From: Sediminibacterium sp. Gen4 | GTDB taxonomy: Bacteria; Bacteroidota; Bacteroidia; Chitinophagales; Chitinophagaceae | Length of the DNA stretch: 51,701 nucleotides | NCBI GenBank assembly: GCA_013391385.1 | Contig: JACBFI010000024.1 | Location: 1 to 51,701, forward strand | Reading direction: 5' to 3' | Shown: positions 45,386-47,039 of the stretch, piece after piece | Layout of the letters: every line of letters begins with the position of its first letter | How positions within the stretch are numbered: position 1 is the first letter of the stretch | Made by a program: the position numbers and the translations under genes | The notes under the pieces: generated by a model | Seen by the model: the letters and a program-made list of their open reading frames with translations, nothing else | The model's database searches: none | Told to the model about the DNA's origin: nothing

Positions 45386-45469
45386 GCCCAGATGGCGGAA
45401 CTGGTAGACGCGCTAGACTCAAAATCTGGTTATCGCAAGGTAGTGCAGGTTCGATTCCTGTTCTGGGCA
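45386..45469 (+). tRNA. tRNA-Leu(CAA)
   Basis: Acceptor strands GCCCAGA and TCTGGGC pair fully. The D-arm is GGCGGAACTGGTAGACGC-like, the anticodon stem is CTAGA/TCTGG, and the loop CTCAAAA has anticodon CAA. A long variable arm (TTATCGCAAGGTAGTG) marks a class II tRNA and the T-arm is CAGGTTCGATTCCTG. The sequence ends with A at 45469; CCA is not encoded. Confidence 0.95.
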
Positions 45470-45480
45470 CAAAAATCACC

Positions 45481-45514
45481 AAGCAATTACACCCTGTGTA
45501 ATTGCTTTTTTTAT
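45481..45514 (+). terminator. Terminator of tRNA-Leu
   Basis: AAGCAATTACAC and GTGTAATTGCTT form a 12-bp stem with a CCT loop, followed by a run of T. Confidence 0.9.
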
Positions 45515-45584
45515 ATCGGTTATTCAAGAAGCGTTTCTTAAAATAATAGCAAGGCTCATTCTACTCGAAATTTTTAGCTGTAAA

Positions 45585-45664
45585 AGTTCGGCTAAATAAC
45601 CGAACTATTCAAAAGTTCGTATATTTTACCGAACTATGTAAAAGTTCGTATATTTAACCGAACT
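45585..45664. promoter_or_regulatory. Three 22-bp palindromes at a 29-bp period (satD operator array)
   Basis: AGTTCGG-N8-CCGAACT (45585-45606) is followed by AGTTCGT-N8-CCGAACT at 45614-45635 and again at 45643-45664. Starts are exactly 29 bp apart, with seven-base spacers (ATTCAAA, ATGTAAA). The inner eight bases are AT-rich. The last one ends 35 bases before the satD ATG. The geometry suggests cooperative binding of a dimeric repressor or activator, and the HTH protein encoded next is the obvious candidate; that assignment is inference. Confidence 0.8.
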
Positions 45665-45699
45665 ATTCAAAAAGGCCTTTTTTAACCAAACTTAATGAT

Positions 45700-46326
45700 A
45701 TGTCTAGTCGTGCCGTCATCACTGCGGATATTGTCAATTCAACCAGATTGAAATCAGCTGAAGCAAAAAATCTTCTGACCACCATTACAAAAATACTTGC
45801 ACCACTGAAGTATGAGTTTTATAGAGGCGACAGCTTTCAGGTATACGTCAGAAATCCACAAGAGGCATTACAATGGATACTACTTTGCAGAGCAATAGCT
45901 ATCAGTGTTAGCAAAACAGCTCAATGTGATATACGAGCAAGTATTGGATTGGGAAATGTGACCACTCCTGTTAGAAATCTGTCTACAGCCAAAGGAGAAG
46001 CATTTATATTATCCGGGAGAGCATTTGACATGATGAGTCAATTAGACAAAAGACTATTTATTGTAATCAATACTACTGAAGAAAAAAAGATTTATGAGAT
46101 TGCGTTAGATTTGATTGCAACTTATACTGATAGCATTTTCAAAAAAATGACAGCAAAGCAGGCAGCAGTGATCGCAGAATTATTAAAAGGAAAAACGCAA
46201 CAGGAAATAGCTGATCAATTCAGAAAATCAAAAAGTACTATTTCCCAACTTGTGAACACTGCCGGATGGTCTGAAATTGAGTCAGTGATTGCAAAATTTG
46301 GAAACATCATCAAACTGCTCAAATGA
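45700..46326 (+). CDS. SatD-like protein with C-terminal HTH
   Basis: The 208-residue product has two parts. Residues 1-125 resemble SatD and also, loosely, class III nucleotide cyclases: ADIVNST (9-15) is like the first metal-binding strand, YRGDSFQVYV (41-50) has the Gly-Asp turn, and IRASIGLGNV (78-87) occupies the place of the RxGIHxG-like strand. Catalytic residues of true cyclases are not all recognisable. Residues 151-190 (TAKQAAVIAELLKGKTQQEIADQFRKSKSTISQLV) form an HTH. Its stop overlaps the DUF3307 start by 4 bp. It may bind the palindrome array just upstream. SatD was named from an acid-tolerance locus of streptococci; the role here is unknown. Confidence 0.82.
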   Translation: MSSRAVITADIVNSTRLKSAEAKNLLTTITKILAPLKYEFYRGDSFQVYVRNPQEALQWILLCRAIAISVSKTAQCDIRASIGLGNVTTPVRNLSTAKGEAFILSGRAFDMMSQLDKRLFIVINTTEEKKIYEIALDLIATYTDSIFKKMTAKQAAVIAELLKGKTQQEIADQFRKSKSTISQLVNTAGWSEIESVIAKFGNIIKLLK

Positions 46327-47039
46327 TCATTGAAGAATTGTGGTTAATCAAACTATTGATCGCACATTTAATGACTGATTTTATACTTCAACCCAGATCC
46401 TGGATTGAAGAAAGAAAACTGAAACACTTCAATTCAGGTAAATTATACTTACATGGAGGTATTACAGCCTTAGTTGCCTGGCTATTGATAGGTTGGCAAT
46501 ACTATCTCGTAGCAATCATCATATTTGCAACACATACCATCATTGATGGATGGAAATCCTATCAAAAAGACAGCACCCCCTATTTTATTATTGATCAACT
46601 ACTTCACCTGATCGTGATTTTTGCCTGTTGGTATTTTTCATTTATCGAATGGAAAGACACCCTTATGAGTTGGAAAGCGTTCACTAATAACCTCCCCCTT
46701 TGGAAACTGATAGCTGGATTTCTTTTCGTTACCTATCCTGCAGGTATTATCATTGGTCAGTTTACAAAACAGTGGAGCGATAAAATCAAACAAACAGACG
46801 ATGCCGAAAAAACTGAAAGTCTGGTCAATGCAGGAAAATGGATAGGTATTGCTGAACGTGTTATTGTATTGATCCTAGTTATTCAAGGGCAATATGCTGC
46901 CATTGGATTACTGGTAACAGCTAAAGGCATTATTCGTTTTGCTGAGAAAGACCGGCAAGAATCGAAAACAGAATACCTCGTCATTGGAACATTACTTAGC
47001 ATCGGATTAGCGATTGTTACGGGATTAATGATTCACTAA
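46323..47039 (+). CDS. DUF3307 membrane protein
   Basis: The 238-residue product has about six hydrophobic helices. The N-terminal block LIAHLMTDFILQPRSWIEERK (about residues 12-32) and ATHTIIDGWKSY (about 79-90) carry conserved His/Asp residues of DUF3307, an inner-membrane family of unknown function. The start codon overlaps the satD stop (ATGA at 46323-46326), so the two are translated together. Its stop overlaps that of the convergent gene in CTAA at 47036-47039. Confidence 0.86.
   Translation: MIIEELWLIKLLIAHLMTDFILQPRSWIEERKLKHFNSGKLYLHGGITALVAWLLIGWQYYLVAIIIFATHTIIDGWKSYQKDSTPYFIIDQLLHLIVIFACWYFSFIEWKDTLMSWKAFTNNLPLWKLIAGFLFVTYPAGIIIGQFTKQWSDKIKQTDDAEKTESLVNAGKWIGIAERVIVLILVIQGQYAAIGLLVTAKGIIRFAEKDRQESKTEYLVIGTLLSIGLAIVTGLMIH

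Follow-up and report, generated by a model that had tools for sequence, protein, structure and literature searches.

A putative three-operator ladder upstream of a satD-DUF3307 gene pair, with half-sites that covary with the recognition helix of the SatD-like protein

The gene pair and the palindromes that precede it

The window analysed here is the whole 51,701-nucleotide stretch of contig JACBFI010000024.1 of Sediminibacterium sp. Gen4. Near its right end two genes follow one another on the forward strand: a satD-like gene (45700..46326), encoding a protein of 208 aa with a cyclase/GGDEF-like domain and an HTH, and a DUF3307 gene (46323..47039; 238 aa; PF11750, 92.9 bits), whose start overlaps the satD stop by four bases (ATGA). 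The first protein matches the Pfam SatD family (PF16264) at 21.9 bits, below the 29-bit cut-off, and for this reason "SatD-like" is the right wording; of the 76 homologues, 44 match PF16264 at E<=0.01.

The structure of the SatD-like protein was modelled from the 76 homologues (mean pLDDT 97). The model consists of a beta-alpha-beta-beta-alpha-beta domain, a long helix and then the HTH, and on this basis the class III cyclase/GGDEF-like domain covers residues ~1-148, the HTH residues 152-187 and the recognition helix residues 178-187. The C-terminal HTH that the earlier note had attributed to this gene product is clear in the model, though the Pfam HTH matches of the protein are several and all below their cut-offs. 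A Foldseek comparison with the PDB returned 11 matches at E<=0.001, all of them class III nucleotidyl cyclases or GGDEF proteins; the best E is 6.6e-5, and the query-normalised TM is modest, 0.33-0.41 across the 11 matches. From this comparison the N-terminal domain is predicted to have a class III nucleotidyl cyclase/GGDEF-like fold. D10, G43 and D44 are invariant across the 76 sequences, and in profile searches D10 and G43-D44 align weakly (E 0.016-0.11) with the cyclase "DI" and "GD" motifs; D10 and D44 are presumably the metal-site aspartates of this fold.

The DUF3307 product is presumably a membrane protein. Its model is all-helical, no useful PDB match was found by structure (best E 0.88) and none by sequence, and the profile search gave no other convincing Pfam family. 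Among 62 sequences the invariant polar residues include H15, D19, H44, H71, D75, D91, H95, E178 and R179. In the window's taxonomic family DUF3307 adjoins satD at 72 of 74 satD places, and 9 of 81 DUF3307 places have no nearby satD match at the threshold used, 5 of the 9 scoring more than 40 bits. An internal stop or a short frame was seen in DUF3307 in two genomes (G075:C23:2880-3203 and G116:C1:658420-658719), too few to test; stops in satD occur at 0 of the 74 satD places.

Three 22-bp palindromes, considered here as putative operators and given without a strand, precede the satD-like gene. Operator 1 (45585..45606) reads AGTTCGG-N8-CCGAACT, a perfect 7-bp dyad, while operators 2 (45614..45635) and 3 (45643..45664) read AGTTCGT-N8-CCGAACT, and 35 bases separate the end of operator 3 from the satD-like start codon. 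The period is exactly 29 bp; the spacers of seven bases and the AT-rich eight-base centres (CTAAATAA, ATATTTTA and ATATTTAA), both pointed out in the earlier note, were confirmed in the sequence. One 28-bp step beyond operator 3 lies a degenerate right half-site, CCAAACT (45686..45692, forward strand; 6/7), which from its letters and position may be a decayed fourth copy.

The placement of the palindromes at 45585, 45614 and 45643, also reported earlier, rests on exact matches: with zero mismatches AGTTCG(G/T)-N8-CCGAACT is matched in the window by these three only, and in the whole 3.52-Mb assembly (98% complete) exact matches to AGTTCGN10CGAACT are confined to the array copies. Searching the window with up to 3 mismatches gave 6 matches against 3.59 expected, which is not significant. 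The three-copy dyad score of 45471-45700 is 37 out of 42, reached by 0 of 1000 dinucleotide shuffles of that stretch (maximum 33), and when the window was scanned in 1030 stretches of 230 bp at a step of 50, those free of the array scored at most 31. A CRISPR-like array, a candidate prompted by the period of 28-29 bp, was rejected: the repeating part consists of the palindromes and the spacers are merely 7 bases.

Arrays upstream of satD homologues

The earlier note had expected palindromes to stand upstream of homologous satD loci as well, a lack of them speaking against its reading; they were found at 67 of 81 loci in a first set and at 38 of 56 in a second. The first set comprises 94 loci (L004-L097) minus 4 without a tblastn hit, 7 duplicates and 2 with at most 11 bases upstream; 24 loci were drawn from named genome contigs and are partly identical places. 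The array threshold is a score of 33 or more, which 14 of the 81 loci miss; of 314 control stretches 0 reach it (control maximum 31); the controls were taken at fixed distances in the same loci, and they are less AT-rich because many of them are coding. Compared with their own shuffles, 74 of the 81 loci outscore all 20. Of the 67 arrays, 41 have a period of 29 and 26 one of 28; 53 consist of three copies and 9 of four. The layout is conserved (dyads of 22 bp repeated every 28 or 29 bp, usually three times) and the letters of the half-sites are not. At one locus (L026, in genome G016) satD has a clear array (38/42) but DUF3307 is not adjacent. A link between the period (28 or 29) and an HTH loop longer by two residues, seen in the first set, was dropped when the second set was found to have period-29 members that apparently carry the longer loop.

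The second set is a phylum-wide sample, in which the Pfam SatD model matched 65 of 296 genomes and 56 loci were fetched, a few of them under the PF16264 cut-off. Arrays scoring at least 33 were present at 24 of the 29 closer homologues and at 14 of the 27 distant, low-scoring ones, with 18 of the 56 loci below threshold, versus 0 of 161 controls; some SatD members above the Pfam cut-off also have an upstream array.

Seven plasmid copies outside the main set were scored in the same manner. The copy from Vibrio lentus has a clear array (39/42) and that from Pseudoalteromonas piscicida scores 31, with 0 of 100 shuffles as good; those from Salinivibrio costicola and Enterobacter kobei are borderline at 30 (1 of 100 shuffles as good in each case), as is the pEC34A copy at 29 (5 of 100). 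In the upstream scoring of the Segatella (27) and Sphingomonas (26) copies no three-copy array was found. A recognisable SatD reading frame was present at 3 of 5 loci on viral contigs; two of the three have arrays (scores 39 and 36), and the third, at 26, has none.

Half-sites, the recognition helix and the promoter

The half-site cores are diverse (TTCGG/T, ATAAG, ATCGG, ATAGT, ATAGC, ATCTG, ATATG, TTAGG, GTAAC and others), and DNA positions 3-7 are of 23 types among 65 loci. These are 65 of the 67 array loci, L052 and L057 being left out for their truncated proteins and L054 being kept though it is probably in the wrong register. Over the 65 loci, the distance between half-sites correlates with the distance between recognition helices (Mantel r 0.56), and it does so with N-domain distance held constant (partial r 0.435, 0 of 2000 permutations). 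Given the recognition helix, the partial r of the half-site is 0.077 with N-domain distance (21 of 2000 permutations) and 0.19 with HTH helices 1-2 (0 of 2000).

The correlation can be followed to single positions. Of 187 protein columns, residue 178 is the best overall, with partial values of 0.85 for DNA position 2 and 0.84 for position 3. The partner of residue 180 is position 6 (0.57), and that of residue 183 is position 7 (0.31). All three residues lie within the modelled recognition helix; in the window's protein they are K178, T180 and Q183. For DNA positions 4, 5 and 8-11 the best partners are outside these residues, with no strong partner in the helix. Among the 65 loci, 45 of the 47 with Q178 have A3, the exceptions (L011 and L018) having T3, and T3 accompanies K178 in 11 of 11. 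At position 6, G is found with T180 in 29 of 29 and with S180 in 10 of 12, and A with A180 in 14 of 15; with N180 no base is clearly preferred (T6 in 5 of 9). At position 7, E183 meets G in 10 of 10, R183 meets C in 4 of 4 and K183 meets C in 11 of 15. When held-out loci are added, 67 of the 70 with Q178 have A3, as do 0 of the 19 others. Several of these pairs would fit textbook contacts (Gln-Ade; Lys/Arg with the opposite Gua; Glu with the opposite Cyt).

Kinship among the loci was taken into account in several ways. A tree of the 65 built from the N-domain requires 28 or more changes at positions 5-7; by parsimony on the same tree, residue 178 and position 3 change just 5-6 times, the loci being related. 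Of 32 disjoint pairs of nearest relatives, 25 are concordant, with core and residue triplet either shared together or changed together (Fisher p 0.003); among 2000 random triplets of variable columns a single one equals this. A held-out test was made on those 24 of the 56 new loci whose SatD-profile score is at least 140 and whose array score is at least 33: half-site overlap is 0.814 with the training locus nearest in the helix, 0.734 with the one nearest in the N-domain and 0.561 with an average locus, the helix neighbour being better in 10 cases, tied in 10 and worse in 4 (p 0.0076). The co-varying palindromes that the earlier note had proposed to look for upstream of related satD genes are therefore present, with half-sites that track residues 178, 180 and 183 beyond kinship.

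It is general knowledge that the regulator of palindromes in front of an operon is often the product of a gene at another place in the genome, and the array might be read by an unlinked or global regulator, with satD merely as a target gene. The half-sites, however, differ among relatives and follow the SatD helix residues, a covariation that such a regulator would leave unexplained, and the array is unique in the genome; we consider this explanation very unlikely.

An array on a viral contig (L206, ~2160-2340) can be mentioned here as a separate observation. It is made of GGCCG-type palindromes (39/42) before satD, and by eye it has R at the place of residue 178 and G at position 3, as in Pseudoalteromonas; its position 4 is G, T180 meets C6, and the remaining recognition rules fail.

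The arrays also overlap promoter-like sequences. In the window a putative -7 element, TATATTTA (45649..45656, forward strand), lies inside operator 3, -5 from the dyad centre, and can be compared with TAnnTTTG; we take TAnnTTTG / TATATT(T/C)(G/A) to be the Bacteroidota-type -7 promoter consensus. Boxes of either form occur in 51 of the 67 upstream regions versus 9.7 expected from mononucleotide shuffling, an excess that is partly due to half-sites ending in TATA. Measured from the nearest dyad centre, 29 boxes lie at +6 and 12 at -5, which places the box within the operators in 41 of the 51; most boxes are at most 50 nt from the ATG.

These positions bear on whether the repeats act as DNA at all. 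If a transcript began upstream of the array, the palindromes could fold and serve as RNA hairpins (leader, attenuator or processing signals). But with the box mostly within 50 nt of the ATG, and 41 boxes at +6 or -5, much of the array would be untranscribed, and hairpins give no account of the covariation with a DNA-reading helix, so that we regard them as highly improbable.

The whole is read, with high though not full confidence, as follows: the SatD-like protein encoded downstream uses the palindromes as its operators and represses satD-DUF3307. For this protein we infer DNA binding, a dimer, cooperativity, repression and a ligand, and for DUF3307 toxicity. A SatD dimer would read each 22-bp dyad with one HTH per half-site, through the helix beginning at residue 178, and adjacent dimers on the 29-bp ladder would probably bind cooperatively, as suggested by the fixed period and the maintained copy number. 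Bound SatD would shut RNA polymerase out and so repress satD-DUF3307, a proposal based on the -7-like box within the operator array. The cyclase-fold N-domain would probably hold the dimer together, and a nucleotide bound to it may modulate repression; SatD would thereby keep its potentially harmful partner DUF3307 low. The autoregulation proposed in the earlier note for the SatD-like protein thus gains strong support, at the level of sequence, from the homologue arrays and from the helix covariation.

SatD might also bind the array and chiefly activate, or act in either direction depending on a nucleotide ligand on the cyclase-fold domain. The invariance of D10 and D44 in 76 sequences is in favour of this, and the upstream copies could touch polymerase, but a -7-like box within an operator is in the classical position for repression; activation or a dual role is in our opinion unlikely.

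Distribution of the module and comparison with known systems

The satD-DUF3307 pair is a pair of adjacent genes, accessory, patchy and found on mobile elements. SatD homologues were detected (E 1e-8) in 73 of 294 genomes sampled from the window's family, while satD was found in 14 of the 72,556 plasmid records searched, 7 of which cover at least 80% of the query. In the window the left neighbour of the variable site, outside the module and after hscB, is tRNA-Leu(CAA) (45386..45470, forward strand). Beyond this tRNA, four same-genus genomes all differ from the window; satD has no match in these four, and the ~1.2 kb examined behind hscB-tRNA-Leu(CAA) in same-genus genomes lacks satD, DUF3307 and the genes that come next in the window. 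This site may be an insertion site.

Plasmid pEC34A (L154, 1792-3481), a mobilizable plasmid of 3.77 kb found in E. coli and Klebsiella, carries as cargo essentially a SatD-like gene and DUF3307, and by megablast its module was found in none of the E. coli complete genomes. On a Sphingomonas insulae plasmid (L158, 1-5600) satD-DUF3307 stands beside genes annotated as TIR domain and Pycsar effector, and further annotated neighbours are an E2-associated cysteine-rich protein and an adenylate/guanylate cyclase. Neither SatD nor DUF3307 was found in the phage records searched. Two genomes have two fetched SatD copies both scoring at least 33 (L118 and L150 in G344; L116 and L135 in G489), with unrelated half-sites; in three others (G457, G497 and G558) one of the two fetched copies is below 33. 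PADLOC has no model for the SatD-like or the DUF3307 protein, the matches obtained being weak, and a crude PADLOC scan of satD neighbours revealed no clear enrichment of defence genes; a defence role of the pair is a guess.

Another idea is that the array serves a mobile element in the manner of a centromere or of iterons. The repeats are evenly spaced, and small plasmids carry the module that the arrays precede. Against this, 67 of 81 loci have the array fixed at the satD promoter, and satD is much more frequent in the genome assemblies than in the plasmid records given above, although these are unlike types of sample; we find such a role extremely improbable.

The name of the SatD family (secretion and acid tolerance) rests on acid tolerance in S. 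mutans, as cited in the part of PMC11323703 used here. According to the same source, satD of S. pyogenes is accessory (178 of 249 genomes) and yet essential in all strains studied by Tn-seq, as would be expected if its product were a repressor or antitoxin keeping a harmful neighbour in check; by analogy, this essentiality looks like an antitoxin-like signature.

On sequence grounds, satD-DUF3307 would be an HTH operon under its own control, in which the sensor fold is unusual, the ladder of three operators is conserved and the specificity code can be read. A wider interpretation, which we put forward tentatively and hold to be possible but somewhat less than probable, is that it is an undescribed, widespread conflict module: a nucleotide-sensing cyclase-fold HTH repressor would silence a membrane effector through the three-operator ladder, loss of SatD or a change of ligand would free the effector, and specificity would have been repeatedly rewritten, so that co-resident copies are spared cross-silencing. 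If this were true, a three-residue protein-DNA recognition code could be read from genomes alone. An uncharacterised gene pair gains a concrete and testable regulatory logic, and the HTH variants that occur in nature, each with its matching operators, would make specificity predictable and rewirable. The accessory satD of S. pyogenes may be essential as a brake on a harmful neighbour.

In the open-access literature, among the matches listed, no description of SatD as a DNA-binding regulator or of its operator array was found; DUF3307, SatD and their Pfam accessions have passing mentions only, among the matches listed and in the parts of those texts that were available. With the SatD family (PF16264) the window's protein is related at the level of the domain. 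Pycsar and similar defence systems likewise have a cyclase-like gene adjoining a membrane protein gene; unlike them, SatD has an HTH and is predicted to read its own promoter, and cyclic nucleotide synthesis or phage protection by SatD is without support.

Toxin-antitoxin systems offer other parallels, drawn here from parts of the respective papers. In Xre-RES, a palindromic repeat in the system's own promoter is bound by the complex with its dimeric DNA-binding domains (PMC12204516); the protein families are other ones, and a family-wide three-copy ladder does not appear in the abstract or outline of that paper. The type IV toxin-antitoxin and abortive infection system AbiE is likewise bicistronic, its HTH antitoxin binds inverted repeats and represses its own operon, and it can stabilise mobile elements (PMC3985639). 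Unlike AbiEi/AbiEii, as that source presents them, the SatD-like protein has its HTH fused to a cyclase-fold domain, its partner is presumed to be a membrane protein, and the families are different. The LacI-family recognition code (PMC2978694), as far as the portion of that paper used here goes, was likewise derived across many genomes from genes under local regulation; there two residues covary with two bases, with convergent changes. SatD differs from the LacI family as treated there in its HTH family and its sensor domain, in the three residues involved, in its fixed-period ladder of three operators and in being part of an accessory two-gene module. On these partial sources, the LacI recognition code is the closest parallel in method and concept, and AbiE the closest in operon logic.
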